Origin: Ectocarpus siliculosus
Taxonomy: Eukaryota; Sar; Phaeophyceae; Ectocarpales; Ectocarpaceae
Assembly (NCBI GenBank): GCA_000310025.1
Contig: FN649736.1
Span: 4,972,314-5,036,313 of the forward strand
Reading direction: 5' to 3'
Length of the DNA stretch: 64,000 nt
The translations under genes were made by a program, and so were the position numbers. Of the stretch, positions 13,401-28,400 are shown piece after piece. The notes under the pieces are model-generated. The model was not told the DNA's origin. It ran no database searches and was given only the letters and a program-made list of their open reading frames with translations. How positions within the stretch are numbered: position 1 is the first letter of the stretch; each line of letters begins with the position of its first letter.

Positions 13401-16400
13401 TCCGGACACACTCTTTCCCCCTACTTGGACTCCCTGTCTTACTGCTTCAACCCGCCCTTATCAAATCGTTCATGTAAATCTTAAAAAGAGTGGGTGACAT
13501 CGTACAGCCCTGTGCGACTCCTTGGAGTATATCCACGTACTTCGAAATTTCCCCATCCAACATCACCGCACTTCTTGTGCATTCTGTCATCTTTTCAACA
13601 TCCTCCACATTTTCCCCCGGATCCCGATGTCCCACATATTTTTCCACAATCCATTGCGCCATACGGTGTCGTAGGCTTTTTGTACATCTAGGAAGAAACA
13701 GTATGTCGTACTCCCGGCGTCTTTCCTACCTTGGATGATTTTACTCAACGTATATACATGGTCTACACAACTACGATCTGGTCTAAATCCAGCTTGTCCT
13801 TCGCTGATCTTTTGTTTCCCCTCCAACATGTCTCCCATTCTATTGTCTATCATCTTGCCAAACAGTTTCCCCACTGTGCTCAGCAGGGTTATCCCTCTAT
13901 AATTCCCCGGGTCAGTTTTATCCCCCTTTTTGAACAGGTTCACGACTACTCCTTCTCTCCATCTCTTCGGCGCGTACTCGTGTTTCCATATCCAGTTGAA
14001 TATCCGGACCAACATGTTAATCATCCCCTCCCTCCCCTGTTTCAAAAGCTCATTCACAATTCCATCAGCCCCTGCCGCTTTTCTATTCTTGAGTTTCCCT
14101 ACGCAGTCCTCTACCTCTTCTCGTGTGAACTCTCCCTGCAACCCGTCTACATCACTACATTCCCTCCGAGATCTTTCAACGTTTTCCTCTGCCCACGAGT
14201 TGATTTCCTTCTCAAACTCCGAGTCGAAGTTGTCGTTGGTGGTGGGTGTCCCAAGTTTGCGGTAGTGCTCTACTAGTACTTCCCGCTTTCCTTTAGAACT
14301 GCTTACCATCTTACCCTCGGCAGATCTTAGTGTCGTTATTCCCGTGTCTCCCCCTCTTTTCTTGCCCACTATCCCTTGAATTCCTACCCACATTTGCTTC
14401 ATCCCCCCCTCAAAATCTTCGTTAGTCTTTTGGACTACTTCCTCCCACAACCCTTTCTTCTTCTTCACGACCAACTCCTTCACCCTCTTTCTACTTTCAA
14501 CATACTCCTTCCATGCTGCATCTGTTTTCCCTGCCGCATACTTTGCGTGTGACTCTCTACGTACTCGAATTGCTTGCTTGATTTCTTCGTCCCACCACTT
14601 CACTGCTCTCCTACAAACTATCAACTTTCTACCTAGAACTCTACTTGCTGTTGTGTTTACCAGCTCTTCCCACCCTTCTATGATTCTAGACCCGGCCTGG
14701 TCCCGGCCTTCGGCATCCTTCGGTGTATCCATTGCCTCTATCAACTCCGAGGGTTTCTTGTTGTTTATAGCCATCTCTTGTTGGAACTCTACCCTCGTTT
14801 CTTCTACTTCTAGCTTATCTATTCTCCATCTGTACATTTTCCTGCGTCGCCTACTCTGTATGACTCGTCTGTTGTAGAGCTGTCCACACCAACGCGTGGT
14901 CTGTAGTGCCTACATCCGTTGTGCATACTCGTACTTCCGTCTCTTTCCCCCCATTCTCTATGACTATGTAGTCAAGGATGGACTCGGTGGGGGGGGGGGG
15001 GGTCTGCAAGGGAAAAATTATCTGGATACAAACGACCTTCTTACGTTCCCTCGAGACAGATTTTTTTCTCAGGAGAAAAAAAGGGCCATGTCAAGTCTTT
15101 GTGGGTCACAACATGCTTCAGTTCACGGTTTTGGCTCGTGTGCGACCAACAAGACACCGAGTGCCCTGTTTTTGGGTCGCCTCCAGAGGGCATGTATATA
15201 ATCGCACGCCAGTGACTGTAGTTTGTGGATGCCGTCGGCCAAAGGCCTCTCTCTGGCATGCGTTGTACACTGATCACACTCGACTCGGAGCAACCAGAAA
15301 AAAAAGGCAACGTTAAAAAAAGCCAACATCGCAACACACTTCGGTTCACGTTTACAGGCCGTGTGCAATCAAAATTGGACAATACGCTCTGCTTCCATGA
15401 CGCGAGCAGAGCGATTATGTATGATCACACTCCATTGGCAGTAGTTTGTGGATGCCATCGGCCGAAAGCCTCTCTCTGGCATGTGTTGTGGACTGGTAGC
15501 GGGTGACACAAGGAGCAAATACGCGGCGGAACAAGAAAAAAAGTCCAAAAAGTCAACACCTCAACGCACTTACTTCGGTTCACGTTTACAGGCCGTGTGC
15601 AATCAAAACTGGACAATATGATCTTTTTCTGGGACGCGAGCAGAGGGTATGCATATGATCACACGCCACTGGCTGCAGTTTGTGGATGTCGACGGCGTAA
15701 AGCCTCTCTCTGGCGTGTGTTTTGACTGGTTACACATGCAGCAGGCACAAAAACGGCTCTTTTCGGCCCAAAGGCAAGAACGTCATCAGAGCAATGTGGC
15801 AGGGTTGACGTTATCGGCTCGTGTGCGGCCAACACGACGCAGAACGCCCTGAACTTTTGATACCTGCAGAGGGTTTGTGCATAGCCCAATGATACTGGCC
15901 TCCGTTTGGCCAGCAGACGATGTAGTTCCTCGTTCTGGCACGATCGGGGTGTGACCAGGGGGTACCCCCCCCCAATTCCAAACTGGAAATTATCAGCCGA
16001 TCCAGTTTGGAAAATGGGCCTATTTTCCAACGCGGCAGCTGGGATCCTAGGAAATATTCGGCGATTTGGAATTTGGGCGTTAGGAATTGGCCAAATTCCT
16101 CCGCGTAAGACGCTCAAATAATTAATTGGGCTGAGAAAAGGAGCCCCCCCCCAATAAAAATCCCGAAATAATCTCGGCCTGAACGAGCTTTTTCTTGCGA
16201 AAGGGAGTTTTTTCTCTCGCTCACGTACCTGTCAGTGGAAAGCGCTAGTCTTGTGTACACAAGAGAGAAGAACCGCCGAAGTCTTCTCGCGTTAAAAATC
16301 AATAGGCAAGCACCGCAGAAAGAGGGAGTGGGGGCCTCAGGGAGAGGAACCTTTTGTGTGACCACGGTTCAGATGTTCTAGCAAGATGCCCCACTCTTGA

Positions 16401-16879: not shown

Positions 16880-17442
16880 TCCCGCCGTATGTCCCGCCAA
16901 ACGGGAGATTGATGGGCTGGGGCTGGCCTTACTGCTGGAGGCCGCAAGGGGGGAGGTGGCCAGGCTGCTGCTGCTGCTGCTGGTACTGCTGGTACTGCGG
17001 GTGCTGCTTCTGCTGCTGCTGCATCCTGAGCTCCAGGTTGCCGAGTTGTTCGGTTTGCTCAGACATCTGCAGCAGTGGTAGCTGGACTGGGTTGATGGGG
17101 GGAGGTGGGCCTCTCAGCCCGGCTGGCGCGGCTCCGCCCGCGTTCTGGTCTCCTCCTGCTGCCGGGGGCTCGTTGTTAGTTCCCGTCGCCTGTTGGTTTC
17201 CCGCCGCCCCTGCTGGCTGGTTTCCCGCTGCTACTGCCTGTCCGCCACCATGGATGGGGAGCTGCCGCGGCTGCTCCTCCTCCGCCGCCGCAGCTCTGTT
17301 GTTGTTGGTTAGCTGCGGGCGGCGGTCCGTCGGGAGGCGGCGGTGGTGGCGGTGGAGATGGCGCTGGCTGCGCTGGCTGCGCTGGCTGCAGCTGCTGGGG
17401 GGGGCCCTGACCCTACTGCTGAAAGTTGTTGCCGTTGTTCAT
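16880..17442 (-). pseudogene. Gln/Pro/Ala-rich gag-like fragment, head-to-head with the DIRS-like element
   Basis: The minus strand reads MNNGNNFQQ then an in-frame TAG (17413-17415), followed by repeated Gln-Pro-Ala units and a Pro run. After one frame change it continues as NQPAGAAGNQQATGTNNEP and ends in LQMSEQTEQLGNLELRMQQQQ and further poly-Gln. The layout (short acidic/Asn start, Pro and Gln runs, then a hydrophobic 'LLQ' helix leading into QQQQ) resembles the N-terminus of the plus-strand gag at 17901. I infer a related, truncated gag copy in inverted orientation. A host low-complexity gene remnant is the alternative. Confidence 0.4.
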
Positions 17443-17900
17443 CACTCCGGCGTGTCTACGACAAGATTCGATCAAATTCGATCAAGTTCCAAACGAAAAC
17501 TCTTTTCGCTCGCTGCTGCTTTGCTGTTTGCTGTACTCTGTGGCTCAGCTCTACAGTCCTGGCCAGGTTCCAGGTTCTCACAAAAGGTTCCCTTTCTGAA
17601 CCCCTTTGTCTACTTAGAAGGTTCCTAGAACTTTATTTCTCGTCAAAGGGCGAACCACCGCTCGCTACAGGAGCTACAGAGCCCTACAGGCAAATTTCCA
17701 CAGGCAAAACTACAAATAAACCAGTCAAATAAACGGTGTTTGCGAACGGGAAGATTCAGTACGTATGTGAATCTGTGGTTTGAGGAGGCGTGTTGGAATT
17801 CGGAAAAGCGGGGATCGAAGAAAAATAGAGACAGCCTCGGTGTCAGAAAGTTTTTGTGCTCTCGCTTTGGGGTGCCGCCTAGGATTTGATCGATTTCGGG
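17443..17900. other. Divergent spacer and probable 5' leader of the DIRS-like element
   Basis: This spacer lies between the inverted gag-like fragment and the plus-strand gag. It contains several GGTTCC-type short repeats (17565-17630) but no open frame with features. I could not find a copy of it at the 3' side, so the element's terminal repeats are unidentified. Confidence 0.4.
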
Positions 17901-19905
17901 ATGGACGGCAATGACGGGCAACCGAGGGCGAACGGCGCCGCGGGCGTCGCGGTGGCCAGTCAAGGCAATCCGGCGGACGGCAGTCCCCCAAGCTCGGCCG
18001 CCCGTGGCGGGAACGCCCAGAACAGGCAGCAGCAGCAGCAGCAGCAACAACAACAGGCAGCAGCAGGATCAGCAGCAGCAGCAGCAGGCCAGGCGCCGCA
18101 GCAGCAGCAGCAGCAGGATCTCCAGCATGGCCACCCGCAGCAACAAAACGGCGGTCCGGCGGCAGCAATTCCGCCGCCGCCGCCCATGATTCACGGGGCC
18201 CCCCAACCTCAGGCAGCAACAGCAGCAGCCCCAGCAACAGCCGCAGCAACAGCAGCAGGAGGGCAGTGGGAGTAATCCGAACCTCTTCGCGCTGCTACAA
18301 CAGCTCGTGACCCAGGGCAGTCGCCAGCAACAACAGATTCGGTCTCTCCAGGAACAACAGCAACAGATTCGGTCTCTCCAGGATGTGGTCGTAAATTTGA
18401 CCGGCAACCGGCAGCCCGCCCAGGGCGCCGCAGCCCACAACAATGCCCGGGATGGCCCCGCCTACAACAATAGTCAGTCAGTAGTCCTCCCCCTGGTCCA
18501 ACCGCCGCCGCCGCCGCCGCCGCCGCAGCAGCAGCAGCAGCAGCAACAACCTCAGCAGCAGCAGCAGCAGCACCGGCCGCAGTCGCAGCCGCAACCATTG
18601 CAACAACAGTATCAACACCAACAACTCCAGGCCTACCCCAACCAGCACTACCTCCAGTCCTCGTCGGCCGCGCCCCAGGGATACCAACAGCTCGCGAGCA
18701 TCCCGGGGGCCGCGCCTGTTTACAATGCCCATCGGCTGAAAGAAGCCCAAAAGCTAGAGGGCCGCACGTGGGAAAAAGACGGCCAAGCGGCCCTGTACCT
18801 AATGCGAGGTGCTACCTTCTCGCCCATTGTCATGACGGGGGGCGAATTCGACCACATCATTCGGGACGTGGCCCACCCGCAACCGGGCCTGCACGCGCTG
18901 CTTACCTTCGGCGCCATCGACATTGCGGCGTTCTCGCCGCCGCGTCCCCCGGGGGTAGCGGCGGTGACACGCACGTTCGACGTGCATCTCGACACCTTCG
19001 TTCGCGTCCTGGAAGTCTTCATCAAGGACGGCATGGCGGGCGCCTCGCCGGCCGGGGCCGACAGGGTTGGCCTGTCTTTCCGGGAACTCTTCAGGATCTC
19101 CGAGGACCTCCGCCACTACAATTCCCGCCACTGCGCTGAGTTCAGGGGCCGCGAGGCCGACGTCTTCGCCAGGTTCAAGCAAGACGCCAACCTCGATTGG
19201 GCCGATTTCATCAGTCGTCTGACCACCGAAGCTAGGGCGCTCCGGCAGCGCAACACCCTCTCCCCTCCACCCCCCAATACGGTGGGGGCGATCCAAGTCC
19301 CGCAGTTTTCACGAACGTTGATCCTGATTGCGGAGGGTACGGCTTCTTCGATGGTGGGTCTCCTGCAGGGGGGTCTAGCCCGTCAGCAGCAGCCAAAATC
19401 GGCCGCCGCTAGCACCAAACGCAAAGCTACTTCACAGGGTCAACCTGCCCGCACCCCCTCCGCACCAGTCGCATACTCTTCCACGGCAGCCGCCAACGCG
19501 TTTGCACAGACCGTTGCCGCCTGGAACACTCCCGACAACGAGTGCTTCTACACGTGGTCGGGCACGTCCTGCACACGCCCGCGGTGCGAGAAGGGGCACA
19601 CCCAGCGGCACCCGTCACTCTTGCCTGCTGTTTCCTCCCCCCCCCCCCCCCTCCGCCCGCTCCGCCCGCTCGTGCCCCCCCTGCCCCGAGAGCGACACAA
19701 GCACCAGTCGCGAGGTACAGTCATGGAGGCGGCCGGGGAGGAGGAGCAGCTGGAGGAGGAGGAGGTGGGGGGCGCGCGGGAGGAGGCCGTGGCGGTACCA
19801 ATCCGTGACGGTGCGGGCCCCACTTCCACGAGGTGGGGCCGACAAGGGGGGGTGGCGAGCTTGGCACGGGAGCGAATGCCTTTGCGGACAGCAGAAGGAC
19901 AGTAG
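17901..19905 (+). CDS. Gag-like protein of the DIRS-like element (one frame change)
   Basis: Starts at the ATG at 17901 (MDGNDGQPRANGAAG). The first part is Gln/Ala/Pro-rich from CAG runs and stays open to 18275 in that frame. The second part, in the +1 frame, takes over between about 18190 and 18275 and reads PNLFALLQQLVTQGS followed by Gln repeats of IRSLQ type. From about residue 140 of the second frame a globular domain begins (AHRLKEAQKLEG ... FDVHLDTFVRVLEVFI ... ADVFARFKQDANLDW) that I infer to be the capsid-like part. Near its end lies a possible Cys/His zinc motif, C-x7-C-x4-C-x3-H (CFYTWSGTSC, CEKGH). After a C-run at about 19638-19650 the frame is low-complexity and Glu-rich and may be shifted. 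Its end overlaps the next frame by about 70 bases. Confidence 0.7.
18015..18600 (+). repeat. CAG/CAA trinucleotide-rich tracts in gag
   Basis: Several interrupted CAG/CAA runs (18030-18060, 18075-18118, 18210-18270, 18325-18370, 18525-18600) encode poly-Gln in one frame and poly-Ser or poly-Ala in the others. They explain most open frames seen on both strands here, and slippage in them could account for the gag frame change. Confidence 0.85.
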
Positions 19906-22900
19906 CGAGCGTGGGAGTTCCCCTTCCCGGGTCGGTGGCACCCGCTGTGTTTTACGGTGAGAGCATGAGTTGCGAACCTGCAATTTCCCATACTGTCAAC
20001 TGTTTGGATTCGTTTTCACCCTGCATAGTGGCGGACACCACTCACGCAAAAACGTCAAAAACAGTAGCTACGGGGGCGGACACCCCGGGCGCTAAGTACG
20101 GGTCATATAACACACAAGCGGAGGACACCGCACTGGTGATAGATAAGTCACAACTATTGGCGGACACCAATTATGCGAATATTGACACACACCGGGCGGA
20201 CACCCGGTGTGAACATGCATTAACCTCACTCCCGCAAACGGTGGACGCCGTTCCCGCGAAAAACACACTAACGGAAAACCTATTGGCGGACACCAATAGC
20301 GGGATCAATAACTGCTCTGCCTTGTACTCCACGAAGACTGTGGTGGACGCCACACGTGATGCACAATGCAATGCAGTCGCCTCGGGGGAGGACACCTCGG
20401 GCAAATATAATTGGCCCCGCGGCACGCAAGCGGTGGACGCCGCGAGCGTTGTCGGTAAACAAAAAATACTGGCGGACACCGGTAGGGTGCAGTGTGAACA
20501 CGCATTTCCCTCACTCCCGCAAACGGTGGACGCCGTTCCCGCGGAAAACACACTAACGGAAAACCTATTGGCGGACACCAATAGCGGGATCAATAACTGC
20601 TCTGCCTTGTACACCACAAAGACTGTGGCGGACACCACACGTGCTGAACAATGCAATGCAGTCGCCCCGGGGGAGGACACCCCGGGCGACCATTATTGGC
20701 ACCGCGGCACGCAAGCGGTGGACGCCGCGAGCGTTGTCGGAAAACAGAAAATACTGGCGGACACCAGTAGTGTGCAGAAGGACATACACGGGGCGGACAC
20801 CCTGCGTAAGAATTTGTCAGTCACACAGCCCCGATTGGCGGACACCATTCGCGGGAACGACACGGAATTGGCGGACACCATGACCGTGTCAAAAGCTACC
20901 CCGGGGGCGGACACCCCGGGGGATGCATCGTTGGCACGTAGGACACTAGCGGCGGACACTGCTAGGGCCGCTGACATCACAAAAGTAATGCGACAGGGTT
21001 GCGGGTCGAATTCAGCGATTTCTCACTTTGGGGCGGGGAAAGAACCTCCGGCCCTAGAGAGTCCAAAAAAGACAACCTTTTCGAGAAACTTAAAAACTCT
21101 GACGGATAGACTCGAGGCACAGAGAAGCATGCTCGCGTCAAGCCTACACTCACTAGACGAGAAACAACGTATCATTGGGAAGATGGCGGATATTGGTAGT
21201 GATTTGGTAAAGCTCCACGATGGAAGGCTGGGAGACGTCGCGAGGGGAATCGGCGGCACTTTGGTGTCACCGCCGTTGGACGTGAGCGACGTCAAGCAGT
21301 ATTTCGGAGAGGAGAAGGTTTTCCCGGGTATCGATGACCTCATGGAGATAGTCGGTGAAGGAGCCCCTGCCCCCACTCTAGTCTCGCAGAAAAATCTCAA
21401 GAAATCCTTGGCATACGGCAACCACCGTAGCGTAGACGATCACCAAACACAAGTGTGGGAAAAACTATGCGACGATGTCAAGCGTAATAGGTGTATCGTC
21501 CTGAGAAAGGCGAACGCATCGGACGTACGTGGGATTAGAGTAGCTCCGTTGGGAGCGGTCCCAGGAAAAAAAGTGAGGATCATCAACGACTTCTCTTTTG
21601 ACCCAAGCACAAGCAAGGGGTCAAAAGGTGGACTCAACAAAGATACCATCATGTCTGAAGTGCCACGTTGCCTGTGCGGCGAAGCACTACCAGCTTTCCT
21701 CGAGGAGCTCACTAGCCTACGGGTAAGATGGCCTGACAAGAGAATTCTCGCAGCCAAGGCTGATGTCACCTCAGCGTTCAGAAATGTTAGGATTTCACCA
21801 GAGCATGCTCACAACTTTTGCTACGTGATAGGAGACGTGCTAGTAGCGGATCTACGGCTGACATTTGGCTGGGCAGCTTCACCAGGATTGTGGGGTGTGT
21901 TAGCCTCCGCTGCAGAGCACTCGCACCGCAACACGTCCCTCGCGAACGCCCGACTACTACCAGAGGGAATCGCAATGATGTCTCACGTCAAAATAAAACC
22001 CCCTTGGGAAAAGGGCACCCCAACCCCAATACCTTCCTCGGCAGGCGTACAACCGCATAGAGGCGGTGGCCCCGCGGACGATTTCTTGGCCAGGGTCTAC
22101 GTTGACGATTTCTTGCTCACGAAGGTCCAGCATGACCCCACCGACGAATCGGCACTCATTGCTTCCGCCTCATTAGCTTCGGACCATGTCCGACTGTTCG
22201 GCGAGGGAGAAGTCGGAGAAACCCCCATTCTTGCCCCGAAAAAGAGCACCGACTGGGACACGGTCATAGAGGCCCTGGGGTACACCATAGACACGCATGA
22301 TGGCAGAATTGCAACTACTCCCGAACGGGTAAGCGCGATCCGGAACACCCTAGAGGTAGCTTGGCCCCACGATAGGAAGGCCAGTGTTCAAGAAGTCCTC
22401 AGCATTGCAGGAAAACTTTGGAACCTCACCTATGTCATCAGGGCTGGTAGATACTTTGTGTGGCAACTGCTCCGCCTATCGGGTCTGCATACCCAAGCCA
22501 GTCGACACACACGGTCACGACGTCTAGTGGACTTGGGTAGAGAGTTCCACGGCGATATCGCCTTCTGGAAGTGGGCCCTCAACCAGCCCCTGGCCCATCG
22601 AGGGGAGTCCCTCAGCGCATCGTTTTTACTCCACGTTAAACGAGCACCATCACGTCTCTACCTCTCAGACGCTAGCTTCACAGCGATTGGCGGCTACTGC
22701 CCCGAACTAAAGACTTTCTGGAGATACACGATCGAACCCTCACTGTCCGCGGAGCTCAAGCGCAAGGCGCAGGCAAAGGAGACGTCAGACATAACGATCA
22801 ATCTGTTAGAACTCACGGGCATGTTCATGACGGCGTGGGTAGTCCAAATGATCCTGAAAGACCGACCCGTAGAAGAAGGGCAGTCGGTGTTGATGCGCGG

Positions 22901-23252
22901 GGACAACGTGTCAGCCGTCAGCTGGACTAACAGGTGTGGGGGGTCGCGTGACAGGCGCGCTAGCCTCATAATGAGACTCATGGGTAGGATGGAGATTTCT
23001 TGCGGCTGGTGCCACGTGGCCAAACACATCCCTGGTCGAAAGAACACACTCGCGGACGGGATTTCACGTTGGGAAGAAAACGAGATCGCCGCCAACGTAA
23101 GAATGCTCACGAAAGACTCAGGGTGGACACAACAGGATATCGGGGAAGGGGGACGAGCGTTGCTCAGCATTATTCTCCAGAAGAAATTACCGAAAGATAG
23201 TCTGGACGACTCGGTATGGGACATTATGGTCCAAGGAACAAGAAATATCTGA
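19833..23252 (+). CDS. RT-RNase H polyprotein of the DIRS-like element
   Basis: A fully open frame of about 1139 codons that overlaps the end of gag. The first in-frame ATG is at 19965, so translation either starts there or depends on gag readthrough or frameshift. Residues about 65-375 are a repetitive, probably disordered region dominated by ADT, VDA and EDT tripeptides; their codons coincide with the hairpin array. A predicted helical stretch follows (RNLKTLTDRLEAQRSML). The reverse transcriptase then shows VRIINDFSFD, AKADVTSAFRNVRI, LTFGWAASPGLWG and the catalytic YVDD at 22098-22109. RNase H shows LSDASFTAIGGY, LLELTGMF, MRGDNVSAVSW and HIPGRKNTLADGISR, the arrangement typical of DIRS and Ngaro elements. 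It copies the element RNA to DNA and removes the template. No protease was seen. Confidence 0.9.
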   Translation: MGPTRGGGELGTGANAFADSRRTVASVGVPLPGSVAPAVFYGESMSCEPAISHTVNCLDSFSPCIVADTTHAKTSKTVATGADTPGAKYGSYNTQAEDTALVIDKSQLLADTNYANIDTHRADTRCEHALTSLPQTVDAVPAKNTLTENLLADTNSGINNCSALYSTKTVVDATRDAQCNAVASGEDTSGKYNWPRGTQAVDAASVVGKQKILADTGRVQCEHAFPSLPQTVDAVPAENTLTENLLADTNSGINNCSALYTTKTVADTTRAEQCNAVAPGEDTPGDHYWHRGTQAVDAASVVGKQKILADTSSVQKDIHGADTLRKNLSVTQPRLADTIRGNDTELADTMTVSKATPGADTPGDASLARRTLAADTARAADITKVMRQGCGSNSAISHFGAGKEPPALESPKKTTFSRNLKTLTDRLEAQRSMLASSLHSLDEKQRIIGKMADIGSDLVKLHDGRLGDVARGIGGTLVSPPLDVSDVKQYFGEEKVFPGIDDLMEIVGEGAPAPTLVSQKNLKKSLAYGNHRSVDDHQTQVWEKLCDDVKRNRCIVLRKANASDVRGIRVAPLGAVPGKKVRIINDFSFDPSTSKGSKGGLNKDTIMSEVPRCLCGEALPAFLEELTSLRVRWPDKRILAAKADVTSAFRNVRISPEHAHNFCYVIGDVLVADLRLTFGWAASPGLWGVLASAAEHSHRNTSLANARLLPEGIAMMSHVKIKPPWEKGTPTPIPSSAGVQPHRGGGPADDFLARVYVDDFLLTKVQHDPTDESALIASASLASDHVRLFGEGEVGETPILAPKKSTDWDTVIEALGYTIDTHDGRIATTPERVSAIRNTLEVAWPHDRKASVQEVLSIAGKLWNLTYVIRAGRYFVWQLLRLSGLHTQASRHTRSRRLVDLGREFHGDIAFWKWALNQPLAHRGESLSASFLLHVKRAPSRLYLSDASFTAIGGYCPELKTFWRYTIEPSLSAELKRKAQAKETSDITINLLELTGMFMTAWVVQMILKDRPVEEGQSVLMRGDNVSAVSWTNRCGGSRDRRASLIMRLMGRMEISCGWCHVAKHIPGRKNTLADGISRWEENEIAANVRMLTKDSGWTQQDIGEGGRALLSIILQKKLPKDSLDDSVWDIMVQGTRNI
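20027..20965 (+). other. Array of about 22 hairpins with conserved NGGACR loop
   Basis: Core sequence GG-NGGACR-CC recurs about every 40 bases: loops at 20032, 20077, 20122, 20161, 20197, 20242, 20287, 20344, 20389, 20434, 20473, 20527, 20572, 20629, 20674, 20719, 20758, 20794, 20839, 20881-region (20874), 20908 and 20953. Flanks are inverted repeats that differ between sites. Examples are CTATTGG/CCAATAG, TGTGG/CCACA, TACTGG/CCAGTA, CACACCGGG/CCCGGTGTG, AACGG/CCGTT and CTAGCGG/CTGCTAG (one G-U pair). Loops are CGGACA, TGGACG or AGGACA. All loops lie in the same frame and encode [A/V/E]-D-[T/A]. A few sites pair only over 3-4 bases, or carry a mismatch or bulge. Function is unknown; see findings. 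Confidence 0.8.
20225..20794 (+). repeat. Internal tandem duplication, 285-bp unit, in the RT frame
   Basis: The segment starting near 20225 recurs starting near 20510, offset 285 bases (95 codons), with about 90 percent or more identity by eye. It carries six hairpins per unit. The offset keeps the reading frame. Confidence 0.9.
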
Positions 23253-23582
23253 CACGGCAAAGAGATCGAAGGTAGGGCAGTAGGACACCGCTCCGCGTTT
23301 CTGGTCGATCAACGAATTATCAAAGGAATTGAGATAACGAGTAAGCTGGAGCGGCGGACACGCATCACACTCACGGTTTCATGACGCCTTGATAAAATGG
23401 ATAGCCGGGGGAGGCAGAGTTGGTTTGGACGACCAATTTTGCTGATCTCCCCTCAAGCCAAGTTGGGGCTATCCCGGGTTCGGCATGAATTTGTCGTACC
23501 TTAAAACGGAACCTCGAAATGTACGTATTTCCTTACGCTGTGAAAAACCGGTGATCGAATATCAGGAACACAGGGAAAAGAT
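23253..23582 (+). other. Spacer between RT-RNase H and recombinase
   Basis: About 330 bases without an open frame matching the recombinase. It contains a long imperfect inverted pair, GGATAGCC near 23398 and GGCTATCC near 23467, that could fold the spacer into a stem-loop. No start codon, intron or regulatory site can be assigned with confidence. Confidence 0.45.
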
Positions 23583-24624
23583 GGCCGGGGAGGCACGAGC
23601 GACGAGGGGGAGCGGTTGGTCAACGCACTCACCTTCGGGTCGTTGGGAAGTGGTACCAATAAGGTGTATCAACGGATGTGGAACACGTGGAAGGAGGCTC
23701 GAGCAGGGGCGGGTTCGGGCCCGTGGCTCAGCGAGAGCGAGGGGGTGGAAAGTGCGGTGCGTGAGTTGTCTGTGTTCATGGCTTGCCGGTGTTTCGGTCA
23801 CAAGAACCAGAGTCAGACTATTCGCGGGTATCTGTCAGCCATCAAGTACTTCCATAAGATGCACGCAGGATGGGAGTTGCCCACTTCGCATTTCCAGATC
23901 CTTGCCATGTTGAAGACCATTGATAGGGTCCACGCCAATACGCAGACGAAGCCTAAGATTAGGAATCCACTTTCGTGTGACATGCTAGCAGCTGGAAAGA
24001 GCGTGGTCGAACATTCGGGAGAATCAGGGAAGTTGATCTGGTGTGGACTTGCCCTCTCGTACCTGCTGATGTGCCGAGCTTCAGAAATCTGGGCGGACGA
24101 CTCGGGGCTCGTGCACTCAGATTTTTGCCTGACTAGAGGAGACCTCGGTTTCTTTTGCGGTCCGGTAAGTAAGGGTTGCATGTGCAGACAGAAGGCAGGC
24201 TAGCCGAGTGGAAGTCACGTTCAGAGCGTCAAAAGCAGATCAAAAACGTTTGGGAGCAACCGTCACTAGATCAGGAGAGGCGTTGAAGGTGTTACTGGAT
24301 CTGTTAGATCTGCACCCCGAGCTCGGGAGTCACGCGCCGTTGATGCAATTGTGGACACAAGACAGGTGGAAGATAATTTCGAGGGCAGAGGCATCGAGAC
24401 ACCTCAGGTTACTCGTGAGCGTGGCGGGTAGAGACCCGCAGAAGTATGCATTGCATTCAGGAAGGATCGGGGGGGCCACGCACCTAGCAAGTATGGGGGC
24501 GTCGGTAATCCAAATTCAGAGAGCCGGGAGGTGGAAGTCATCGGCTTTTTTTATGGTGTACGTTAGGGCTGGGGGTGAAGGAGCGAAGTTCGTGCCTCAG
24601 GCCCTTACGGAACCCGAGGAATGA
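23583..24624 (+). CDS. Tyrosine recombinase of the DIRS-like element (one frame change)
   Basis: The N-terminal part (SAM-like, core-binding) reads from about 23583 (DEGERLVNALTFGS, then NKVYQRMWNTW and RGYLSAIKYFHKM) to a TAG at 24201. There is no ATG near its start; the frame opens upstream. The catalytic part continues in another frame from about 24190 (VEVTFRASKADQKRLG) to the stop at 24622-24624. Active-site residues are visible: Arg in LLMCRASEI (24075-24077), H-x-x-R in LHSGRIGGATH (24454-24465), Trp in GRWKSS and the nucleophile Tyr in VYVRAG (24559-24561). The break lies between 24150 and 24200, where a GTAAGT is present, but no plausible acceptor restores the frame with a normal-length intron. 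The enzyme would insert the circular cDNA by recombination. Confidence 0.85.
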
Positions 24625-24640
24625 CCGGGGAGCGGTTTCG

Positions 24641-27600
24641 GAGGAGTAGGTCATCAAACATGCCTAATGGAGTAAGATATGTTTAGGCCAGAGGCCGAAA
24701 CAATAGTAATGATAGGAGGGCAATCTTGGGAAGTTTGCAACGGGTTAGTCCGATAAGAAAACGTTGGGAGCAAGACGGCATTTTACCTGCGCTCTCAATT
24801 TGTTTCATGTGTCTTGGTTTTTCTTTGGTTGCCTGCAGAAAAATAATCCAGAATTCTTGAGCAAACATAAACATCTGATTCTGGTCTTCTTGTCTTGGTC
24901 TTTTTTTTTTTTTTCATAATTTGACACAACGAAACCATCTCTATCATAGAAAATAGTCTGAGACAGATTAGCAATGGATTCATAGCGTCAGAAAGTACCT
25001 GTATGTCTACGATTTCCCAGACAGCATATAGGGACATCTCCCCTGCGGGTAACAGGCTCAACAAGACAGTTTGGTAGCTGTCTTGTGTGTCTCATATATG
25101 TTATGTTGGGAAGGTGCAGATGATATGTCCGATGGATCTTTAGGAATCTGGTCTTTATTAGACCCGAGAAAAGATGCTCCGAGTTTGTCTTGCTCAGTTT
25201 TGTCTTTGAACGAACAATTTTTCATTGGCCTACACACACACCCCGAGATACTCCCGACGTCCTCCCGCCCTACAGACGCCGCACCATCCCATGAAGCTGC
25301 CGAAACACACACAACTCGGCCGTCATAGGCGACACCATGGCGAACCAACTACATACAGCAGTCAGACAAAGTCATGCACCGCAGACCCGATGCGCATTGC
25401 ATGCTGCCGACATGGTGCAACTTTTGCGTTAGTTATCCTAGATGTATATGGGTGAACCGAAGCATGCCGCTCTACATCCATGCTCACAAGTGACACATCA
25501 AGCCGGCGTTGAGGAGGGTGAGGCGGTGAGGCGGGCGGCATAGATCTCAGGAATGTGGCACAGGTGGAGGCGGAGGTGATTGATGGAGTTAGGGATGCTT
25601 CAAGCGGCGTGGGAGCGTGAGGAGCTGCAGCGCGTGGGTCCTGTGGACCGTGCTGCGGTGATTCGTTTGACGGGGAACGATCGACTCCGTCGACGACTGA
25701 CTGCGATGTGTATCACAACTTGTTCGCGTGCTGAAGGGGTACACACATGCATGCCTCAGCTGTTTGCGGCGCTACGCTTCCCATGCGCTCCCGGCAACTG
25801 AACTGGGCCAACCGCCTATTCGTGAGCGAGTACGTTGTTGTTGCTCCATCAGTATTCTCCATGACTACTTAGTTATAGTCAGCTGGGGGTGAGGGTTCAG
25901 TTAAAATAGAGTCGTGGTAGCCTTGTTGGGGTGGAGGCGGAAGGTCGGAAATAAATATGTTTCGTGTTCCGAGTCGGCCCAACCATCTGTCTGCCGCCGC
26001 CGGCAAAGGGGCTTCGTCGTATTGAACGCAATTTTCTTGGAAATTTCCGCGTGCTCAAGACCGAAAAAATCACACTCGAGTCTTCGCAAGCAGTTTTGAA
26101 ACACAATTCCGGTCTTGGTTTTGGACTTGCTTCCGACTTCAAAGACCAAGACCTGAGATCAGTCCGCAAGCACCCTAATAACCTCCTCTGACGCTATGGA
26201 TTCATTGCTAATCTATCTTAGACTCTCAGATAGAGATGGATTCGTTAATTAAAAGATAATAACTTAATTCCGAATGGGAAAAAAATTGTTTCCCGGAATG
26301 GTTCTCGGAATCGCCCATTCTCTCCGGAGAGAGAGAGAGAGGTCACGACAGGAGGACACAGATAACAGAGGAGCACCACAGGACAGAGCAACAGAGACGA
26401 GCAACAGCAAGATTTGTGAGTGAGCTTGAGTTCTTTTGTACTCCGAGCGTTATTTGTGTTGTTATTTCAAGCACCCCCACACCGCGCTGATGATTTGCAG
26501 CTGATTCATCCGACAAATTGCACATGTTTTTTTCTCCCACATTTTGTTCCCAACGTGGTTGAAGCACAGCTTGACTGCGGGTGCCAGGAGAGGCGGCCGG
26601 ATTGTGCCTCACATGTACCACCCTTCTTCTGGCCAAAACTGATCTCATTTACCCACGCAAAAACGCGCACAAACGAAGGCCGGTATAATAGTAGTGGTTT
26701 GCTTCCAAACAACACTCGGTAGCAGCACGTACACAGCAAGCAGTTAGTTAAATGTGCCGCTTCCCACATTTTTTCCAACAGTTTTTTCGTTCCTGTTCCA
26801 GAAGCAAGCGCAGGAACAACAAGGCTCGAGAGCGTGATTTGGGTTTGGGAGACTTGTGTTGTAATAAAAGGTCGGAAGAAGCTTTTGGTTGAGAGCACGG
26901 GTGAGATGTTGCAAGAGAACGATGCACTGCTGCTGTAGTGAGAGATATAATGCTCGAGGACGTTCAAACGAAAACGGATGCAAGAGACCTACAGCAGTGT
27001 GTTGTACCTTGTTTGTTTGCGGGGTGTTCAAGATCCGAAGAATGCGCCTGGTACACTTCTCAGGAAACAGAAAATCTCTCTCTGTACACATACATGCATC
27101 ATGCATGCATGCGGAATTTATCCGCCGCCGCCCATAATCGCCGATGAGTTTCATGTTGTTCATAAGAGGGTCTTGCTTGGGAAGCAACCTACGCACATCA
27201 TAGGTGCCACTGACATACGGATTAGTCCTGGTACGGCGAATAGAAGCCTACCTGATGAGCCGATCGTGATGAGGGATGTACACAGCAGCAGCCACCGTCT
27301 CCAAATGAACAGCTCTCTTTGACCCTGTATTTTGCACCATCACCGACACTTCTTCGCTGTTTCCCACGGAAAAGAGGACCCAGAACACCTCTCCTGGTTG
27401 TCTTCACACTACAGCAGCAGTAGGACCTACACCTGCTACTTAGTATGAATGAGTACGCTGTAGATTTGAGACCCACACAAAATACCGTAGGTTGCGTAAG
27501 ATACCACACCCCCGACTAACTCTAAGCCCGAACACTCCACAACGGGTGACGGTGTCGAGAAATTGACGTCGTTGGAACCATCTCTTCGACAGATTTCCAT

Positions 27601-28400
27601 ATAATACTGGCGGCCTCCTCCTCATCATGATGAAAATCGAGATGCAAAAAACCTGGGGTGGGTATGGTATCTCATGCAACATACGTACAACATACATATG
27701 CATACTAAAACAACATACATAATACGCTCATACTTGTTTATTAATCTCTTGGAACAGCAGTGCTTGCTGTTGCCTTGCTCTCAAAGGTAGACTGAGCACA
27801 GAGGGGGAGGACATGCTCCCTCTAAAAGGGGCCACAAAGGTCCTGTCCCCTGTTTTATCCTTCCATCGGGAGTTACATCTCCCGCACTTTCCTCTGGGAA
27901 TTACTCCGCAATAATACCGTTGGCACTGGCAACATTCAAATCCCATAACACTAGCCCACCCTGGAGGTTCTCATACACAGATACTTGAAACCTAGGAACT
28001 TGACAAATAATTGTCGAATCCCAAAAAATGAAAGGATCGAGGATGTGGAGCTCCAAAATACCAAGAATCACCCTCCCACACCTCTCACACGATGAGGCGC
28101 AAGACCATCGTTTGACCAAACCAAAACATTCAAATCCCATAACATCACCAAGCGCGAAGCGCCTTGAGGTATTCGGCGAGTCGCATGAAGGGTGCGCTGC
28201 ATCTTGCGAAGGGTGTTCGGCATCTTGTGCTTACTTCCTTGCGTACGGATGACAGCTGCGTATGACTCAATTTGTTTTCTGGTGCTTTCATTTCCAAAGA
28301 CAGTTAGAGCACTGTGGAACTGCCTTGAGGATGCTTGACCATTTTAACACAACGTGGTGCGATCATCCCCCTTTGCGCGGAGTGAGGGCTCTCCACGCCG
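24641..28400. other. Long stretch without a recognised gene
   Basis: It includes the likely 3' tail of the DIRS-like element (T-run at 24901-24914), a GA microsatellite at about 26327-26341, and a 19-base sequence (ACATTCAAATCCCATAACA) present at about 27932 and 28127. Open frames of up to about 150 codons occur on both strands, but none shows a domain, a signal peptide with a following exon, or consistent splicing. Confidence 0.4.

Follow-up and report, generated by a model that had tools for sequence, protein, structure and literature searches.

The window analysed here is a stretch of 64,000 nucleotides from contig FN649736.1 of Ectocarpus siliculosus, part of the 189-Mb genome from which all same-genome copies discussed below were drawn. 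It contains a Ngaro-like retrotransposon copy whose reverse transcriptase (RT) reading frame carries a tandem array of short hairpins (Table 1). The match to this element in other copies begins at 17741-17758 and, in nine copies, stops at 24871-24874. Along the window copy a Gag ORF is followed by an RT/RNase H ORF, and then by a putative tyrosine recombinase (YR) in two frames. Gag includes CFYTWSGTSCTRPRCEKGH, which we take to be a CCCH finger, and after a C-run near 19640 a different frame encodes a Gly/Arg-rich tail. By sequence, the RT returned no family from Pfam at E up to 1 and no match from a PDB profile search at 0.001; its predicted fold (pLDDT 82.5) was matched by Foldseek to Ty3 RT (4ol8, E 9.9e-10), followed by MMLV and XMRV RT, and on this model the RT with its RNase H is predicted to be of the retroelement type. 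The motifs MCRASEI, HSGR and GRWKSSAFFMVYV are presumably those of a tyrosine recombinase, as are HSGR and GRWKSSAFFMVY, picked by eye in the window frames; for P0016, a relative with YR-like sequence behind its RT, Pfam returned no YR family.

Split direct repeats in the order B1-A2-B2 are present at the 3' end of copy C112 (B1 and B2 at 89-290 and 615-809 of the fetched end), where A2 is 97.5% identical to window positions 17745-17866. The A2-B2 part is missing from the 3' end of the window copy, and no A2 occurs within window positions 17000-28000. DIRS and PAT elements carry a methyltransferase domain between RNase H and YR, which Ngaro elements are not known to have; the gap between the end of the RT ORF at 23252 and the opening of the YR frame at 23544 leaves little room for one. 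The retrotransposon is Ngaro-like: its ends, the split repeats (A1...B1-A2-B2) seen in C112 and the RT fold bear out the guess of a DIRS/Ngaro element made in the first-pass annotation of this sequence.

The sequence around the element is itself rich in repeats. Window positions 24873-26250, which adjoin or interrupt the 3' end of the element, are repetitive, with many matches and inverted ends (24955-24992 and 26187-26224), and are likely a DNA transposon. Just ahead of the element, which belongs to family A as defined below, positions 16894-17526 match in antisense a stretch upstream of a family B RT, on the Gag side by position. Three diverged copies of about 153 bases, with starts 223 and 234 apart, occupy 15115-15724, and an ORF with an RVT_1 match, from another retroelement, lies on the minus strand at 13587-14837.

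Table 1. Features of the Ngaro-like copy and its hairpin array, in window positions
Feature	Position	Strand	Detail
Ngaro-like retrotransposon copy	17745..24872	+	repeat A1 through end of repeat B1
Gag ORF with putative CCCH finger (CFYTWSGTSCTRPRCEKGH)	18307..19905	+	
RT/RNase H ORF	19809..23252	+	open from 19809; RT domain taken from 21132; array in N-terminal extension
Putative tyrosine recombinase, first part (MCRASEI)	23544..24203	+	
Putative tyrosine recombinase, second part	24169..24624	+	other frame (HSGR ... GRWKSSAFFMVYV)
Whole hairpin array	20023..20967	+	22 units
Hairpin 1	20023..20046	+	stem 5 bp
Hairpin 2	20068..20091	+	stem 4 bp (5 with 7-base loop)
Hairpin 3	20113..20136	+	stem 4 bp
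Hairpin 4	20152..20175	+	stem 5 bp
Hairpin 5	20188..20211	+	stem 9 bp
Hairpin 6	20233..20256	+	stem 5 bp
Hairpin 7	20278..20301	+	stem 7 bp
Hairpin 8	20335..20358	+	stem 5 bp
Hairpin 9	20380..20403	+	stem 4 bp, one G-T
Hairpin 10	20425..20448	+	stem 4 bp, outer stem across 2x2 internal loop
Hairpin 11	20464..20487	+	stem 6 bp, one G-T
Hairpin 12	20518..20541	+	stem 5 bp; inside duplicated 285-base stretch
Hairpin 13	20563..20586	+	stem 7 bp; duplicate
Hairpin 14	20620..20643	+	stem 5 bp
Hairpin 15	20665..20688	+	stem 4 bp (7 with 7-base loop)
Hairpin 16	20710..20733	+	stem 4 bp, outer stem; duplicate
Hairpin 17	20749..20772	+	stem 6 bp
Hairpin 18	20785..20808	+	stem 5 bp, one G-T
Hairpin 19	20830..20853	+	stem 3 bp, mismatch, 3 more bp
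Hairpin 20	20859..20890	+	inner stem 3 bp; outer stem 7 bp, GACACGG/CCGTGTC
Hairpin 21	20899..20922	+	stem 8 bp with 7-base loop
Hairpin 22	20944..20967	+	core ends in CT; stem 7 bp, one G-T

Organization of the hairpin array

The RT ORF carries the array in its N-terminal extension, after a block ending VFYGE and ahead of the RT domain. The 22 units have the form GG-NGGACR-CY (20030-20960), all on a single strand and in a single frame. The consensus GGNGGACRCC has 21 matches on the + strand at 20030-20915, where chance would supply 1.3±1.2 over both strands of 64 kb, and only one more match lies elsewhere in the window (16481, - strand); the 22nd unit, at 20951, has a core ending in CT. Unit starts are spaced 33 to 57 bases apart, all 21 gaps being multiples of 3, and every loop is read in the same frame as [A/V/E]-D-[T/A]. 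Three observations made from the letters alone are thus upheld: an array of about 22 hairpins with a conserved core, a frame common to all loops, and an outer 7-bp stem at one site, which is found in hairpin 20 (GACACGG at 20859-20865, CCGTGTC at 20884-20890). A fourth, that stems differ at each site and span 4-9 bp, holds insofar as the arms are variable and paired, but uninterrupted stems (including GG/CC) range from 3 to 9 bp over the 21 GGNGGACRCC sites, and the 22 sites amount to only 18 distinct pairs of 7-base arms because the array contains a 285-base stretch twice, at 93% identity. A longer stem becomes possible at three G-rich sites if the loop is taken as 7 bases (GCGGACA or GAGGACA).

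A model of the unit (R1), trained on units including those of the window and with the N and R columns modelled as a tenth pair, returned the 22 units and nothing else in the window, a result that is not independent of its training set. Rfam, searched with positions 17000-26500 at E up to 1, gave two matches, both under the gathering score and outside the array. In the copies on contig C2 and at C8:2356 kb (C8b), loci L001 and L005, hairpin 21 is replaced by its exact reverse complement over 24 of 24 bases (20899-20922), an inversion which is the footprint of strand switching at a palindrome.

Pairing, constraint and covariation

Counting the seven arm positions outside GG/CC in each of the 22 units, 104 of 154 are paired. 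Swapping right arms between units leaves 71.3±4.7 paired (maximum 89 in 10,000 swaps), and synonymous codon shuffles that keep the core leave 87.0±3.6, with none of 5000 reaching 104, in keeping with the earlier claim that the protein alone would not require complementary arms. The excess is also found among distinct arms alone (85 of 126, against 57.7±4.5 swapped; maximum 74), and is less striking for uninterrupted stem length with the core kept (111 against 96.3±4.7; 24 of 5000 shuffles reach 111). Perfect hairpins of at least 5 bp number 14 in the array, 12 of which are array units, compared with 5.5±2.1 in synonymous shuffles (0/100 reach 14); the corresponding control counts, observed and shuffled, are 9 and 9.0 in RT, and 7 and 7.8 in Gag. 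Local folding energy in the array is likewise low relative to codon shuffles (z -4.1, 0/200 as low; z -3.7 without the second 285-base copy), control values being z +0.1 and +0.4 for two RT pieces and +0.9 for one Gag piece. By both measures the array therefore exceeds codon-preserving shuffles, the comparison suggested when it was initially described. As the minus strand of the array also folds beyond shuffles (z -3.2), the folding signal alone does not name the strand; the preference for + over - in the family A array is z -1.0 only.

Codon usage and copy variation point to constraint on the same letters. Core Asp is encoded by GAC in 22 of 22 cases, core Thr by ACC in 16 of 17 and core Glu by GAG in 3 of 3, compared with 6/10, 4/32 and 2/10, respectively, in the rest of 19833-21000, and part of this bias may come from common descent of the units. 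Among 12 near copies of the element, with hairpin 21 left out for its inversion, 2 of 340 hairpin columns are informative, against 33 of 644 in spacers (p 8e-5), and loop columns are informative in 0 of 126; with hairpin 21 kept the counts are 9/354 and 34/656 (p 0.05). Third codon positions vary in 6/112 cases within hairpins and 52/217 within spacers (p = 1.3e-5), and are informative in 0/112 and 13/217 (p 0.006). The difference in any variation is weaker at first and second positions (p 0.14 and 0.013), and when the bases are taken separately, A and C show a clear gap between hairpins and spacers that G and T do not.

Covariation was assessed in 36 of 44 distinct units from five representatives, 8 units of contig copy C2 having been set aside as near repeats. 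Since the core served to find the units, the invariance of GG-GGAC among them is by construction. Counted outward, the first variable pair is UA in 14 units, GC in 9 and CG in 8; the second is GC in 17, UA in 6, AU in 4 and CG in 3; and the third is AU in 13, CG in 5, UA in 3 and GC in 1. The covariation score is 0.422, compared with 0.158±0.020 in shuffles (0/500) and at most 0.118 with the partner slid; standard pairs make up 73.8%, against 58.1±1.7 (0/500), and 61 cells are changed on both sides, against 25.9±4.1 (0/500), with the proviso that the units are related, such that the shuffles overstate significance somewhat. Shuffles were often as high for the number of pairs changed on both sides (7 versus 6.0±0.6; 98/500) and of further pair types (24 versus 22.1±1.7; 108/500) in the 36 units. 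Outer positions pair less, columns 1-4 being unpaired in 13 to 21 units. Across 142 unique family A units, matched to at least 7 of 8 core letters and so possibly including a few strays, Watson-Crick pairs make up 323 of the 426 cases at the three innermost variable pair positions, against 139.9±9.9 when swapped.

Compensatory change among element copies, whose lack was named at the outset as leaving only a protein repeat, is evident between units and between diverged copies, where both sides differ yet pair, but in recent copies it accounts for only 3 of 42 events. In the alignment of 15 copies, stem changes mostly disrupt or loosen pairing, the pattern of decaying copies: the 42 distinct events comprise 13 changes to a mismatch and one-sided changes to G·U (11), A·C (11) and a Watson-Crick pair (2), together with 3 two-sided changes to another Watson-Crick pair and 2 other double changes. 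Because G·U and A·C events are equal in number, they do not tell apart RNA and DNA as the acting strand; a further count gives 8 and 10. Taken together, pairing beyond codon shuffles, covariation between units and constraint on synonymous letters indicate, at the level of sequence, that selection acts on nucleic-acid structure in the array, and not only on protein.

Related elements in the genome and beyond

An RT search of the genome gave at least 71 matches (63 of 376 candidates scored), which were divided by RT identity into families A (at least 79%), B (about 64%), C (about 54%, with L057 as subfamily C') and D (about 38%). Within family A, each of 12 near copies has between 12 and 22 units, and 3 to 8 recognisable units are left in the diverged copies at C14, C16, C25 and C55; the array of the decayed C25 copy gives z -3.4, with an arbitrary frame used for the shuffles. 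Among 24 loci tested with R1, matches were confined to four of the five A loci (none in L029), with no match in the 19 B, C and D loci, which unlike the result in the window is an independent test of the model.

In family B the corresponding place before RT holds a hairpin array of unrelated sequence, mostly of 120-base units (32 in 8 loci, 15 distinct). Hairpins such as CTAGTG-GNAA-CACTAG, CCAATA-CGTG-TATTGG and CCCCG-TTAC-CGGGG are set there between GAC(C) and (G)GAGA. The letters shared among units are those of the loop in family A (NGGACR) and of the flanks in family B (GACC ... GGAGA), and loops are not common to the two. Locus L039 has 17 perfect hairpins, of about six different kinds, against 3.8±1.6 in shuffles, and its array folds with z -5.5, favouring + over - by z -3.0. 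Stems vary at 2/34 sites and other sites at 9/60 (p 0.32), there being too little variation for a contrast. In family C (L044) the whole extension gives z -3.5 (1/200 as low), but its halves give -1.7 and -2.4, with 8 hairpins against 7.5, and we claim no array there; in C' (L057) the sequence looks hairpin-like by eye, yet shuffles give z +1.1, with no excess, and this candidate was rejected. The two family D loci read have no array, only a short stretch between Gag and RT. Given the weak signal in C, the lack of excess in C' and the two D loci without an array, the function is not needed by all relatives. Families whose RTs are about 50-65% identical have repeats of unrelated sequence before RT. 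The CCCH finger of Gag is found in families A, C (one locus) and D, and in B at one locus, L069; the Gly/Arg-rich tail is found in the window copy (in the other frame), C (L052) and D.

A separate hairpin is seen at the Gag/RT junction, at about 19815-19840 in the window and near the Gag stop in L028, L039, L052, L064 and L065. Its stem sequence differs among loci of families A, B, C and D, with arms that match each other (GGCCCCAC/GTGGGGCC, GGCTCTGCC/GGCAGGGCC and GGCTCTGTC/GACAGGGCC), and the fold differs in the old copy C25. This hairpin may be another conserved RNA signal, serving re-initiation or recoding.

A protein search gave 18 relatives, of which 13 were read; by eye, nine of these have linker repeats before RT, of several unrelated kinds. 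P0001 and P0002 (78% and 76% RT identity), known as proteins only, share an [A/V/E]-D-[T/A]-like motif, and in 26 of 36 cases complementary letters could encode the residues on either side of it, compared with 13.4±3.3 in shuffles (0/5000), although the motif and stretch were chosen after viewing the sequences and a few units resemble those of the window. Singly, 103 and 20 of 5000 shuffles are as high for P0001 and P0002; the same imprint in the window's own protein is 40 of 46, against 18.6±3.3. In this coding region the choice of amino acids seems to be governed by the fold rather than by the protein, strongly enough to be legible from the protein alone. The linker repeats of P0003, P0005, P0010, P0012, P0013 and P0014 are unrelated (for example GHGQLP, QGHTAAD, QGAGAAE and VDPSGRQNFPHGKNRKEI), and palindromic codons are possible in some of them. 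No relatives were found in viral contigs or GTDB genomes.

Discussion

We know of no answer to how tyrosine recombinase retrotransposons choose their own RNA. We give a probability of about one half to the reading that the array is a selected multivalent structure in the genomic RNA, recognised by Gag, through its CCCH finger, or by RT, and serving template selection or packaging. Each unit in the genomic (+) RNA would form a short hairpin presenting the loop NGGACR, whose stem letters would be free to change while the arms pair and whose loop letters would be held; the CCCH finger and Gly/Arg-rich tail of Gag most likely, otherwise RT, would engage many loops at once, and the element's own full-length RNA could thereby be picked for the particle or as RT template. 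Free arms, a held loop and many copies, on an RNA which both Gag and RT must find, have the anatomy of a multivalent recognition array. CCCH fingers and Gly/Arg-rich tails are usually RNA-binding, and the location beside Gag suits a signal on full-length RNA. Folding in cellular RNA, the identity of the binding protein and a use in packaging or template selection are what we infer as most likely. That G·U is no higher than A·C counts against RNA, where an excess would be hoped for.

The array follows the Gag/RT junction, and loci of families A, B, C and D have a junction hairpin with different stems, as might be expected if stems behind the Gag stop slowed ribosomes or set the output of the RT ORF. 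We consider this unlikely, as a pause needs no conserved loop, and here the loop is informative in 0/126 columns and its core codons are biased; moreover, at 3 to 9 bp the stems look rather short to act as a roadblock, and in family D two loci carry the hairpin at the junction and no array. The inversion of hairpin 21 at 24/24 bases in C2 and C8b does show that strand switching happens here, and RT template switching which copies arm from arm could keep palindromes perfect without any function. Such a neutral origin nevertheless appears quite unlikely, given that the RT and Gag parts have no hairpin excess, that copying of arms would leave the loop and its synonymous letters free to change, and that hairpin columns change less than spacers (2/340 versus 33/644).

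Equal G·U and A·C counts, and folding of the minus strand beyond shuffles (z -3.2), would both be compatible with hairpins that work as DNA, on single-stranded or circular cDNA, as sites for the recombinase or for second-strand synthesis. This, too, we consider quite unlikely: the arms vary between units in a way that does not resemble a recombinase core site, the + strand is favoured in family B, and recombination of these elements is generally attributed to their terminal repeats. Finally, an [A/V/E]-D-[T/A] protein repeat in which pairing is accidental would account for gaps that are multiples of 3 in 21 of 21 cases, for repeats at this place in nine of 13 relatives (by eye), and for the motif common to P0001 and P0002. 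Pairing above that of protein-keeping shuffles refutes it as sole cause, and with repeats unrelated between families of about 50-65% identical RT, and with synonymous letters constrained, we leave it only the slimmest of chances, although a protein repeat may act additionally.

A further reading, possible but doubtful, is that each lineage carries its own hairpin code in the linker before RT, replaced fast in sequence and read by the finger of its own Gag, as a private address by which Gag would pack RNA of its own family only. With about 20 co-varying hairpins and a single loop, so compact a natural array would offer a ready assay for the choice of own RNA.

Several known systems invite comparison. 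Engineered hairpin arrays serve to tag RNAs, and the array here would be their natural counterpart. Retroviral psi consists of several hairpins with purine-rich loops bound by the Gag zinc finger, mostly in leader RNA and few in number, in contrast to the many hairpins found here inside the pol reading frame. Among Ngaro elements, a Gag-like ORF, an RT/RNase H ORF and a YR ORF occur in that order according to two papers (PMC8547959, PMC12477816), one of which lists 15 Ngaro families for Ectocarpus while the other covers Cafeteria; the element described here resembles them in its ORF order and, in copy C112, its split direct repeats. The words 'hairpin' and 'stem-loop' have 0 occurrences in the main text of either paper, and among the literature searched on Ngaro/DIRS hairpins, packaging, RNA structure and tandem coding-region hairpins, no such array appears by title or abstract start, in line with the first-pass remark that none was known in DIRS/Ngaro elements. 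The closest likeness is with the multiple packaging signals described for RNA viruses and for hepatitis B virus, where the shell protein meets a single motif on several stem-loops, the loop motif of hepatitis B virus being RGAG (PMC5431903, PMC7612645). Judged by its letters, the array shares with these sets its many stem-loops, single loop motif and variable stems; the viral signals are dispersed over the genome and their binding has been tested (PMC5431903, PMC7612645), whereas the 22 hairpins described here, known from sequence, are gathered in one 0.9-kb array inside a retrotransposon gene.
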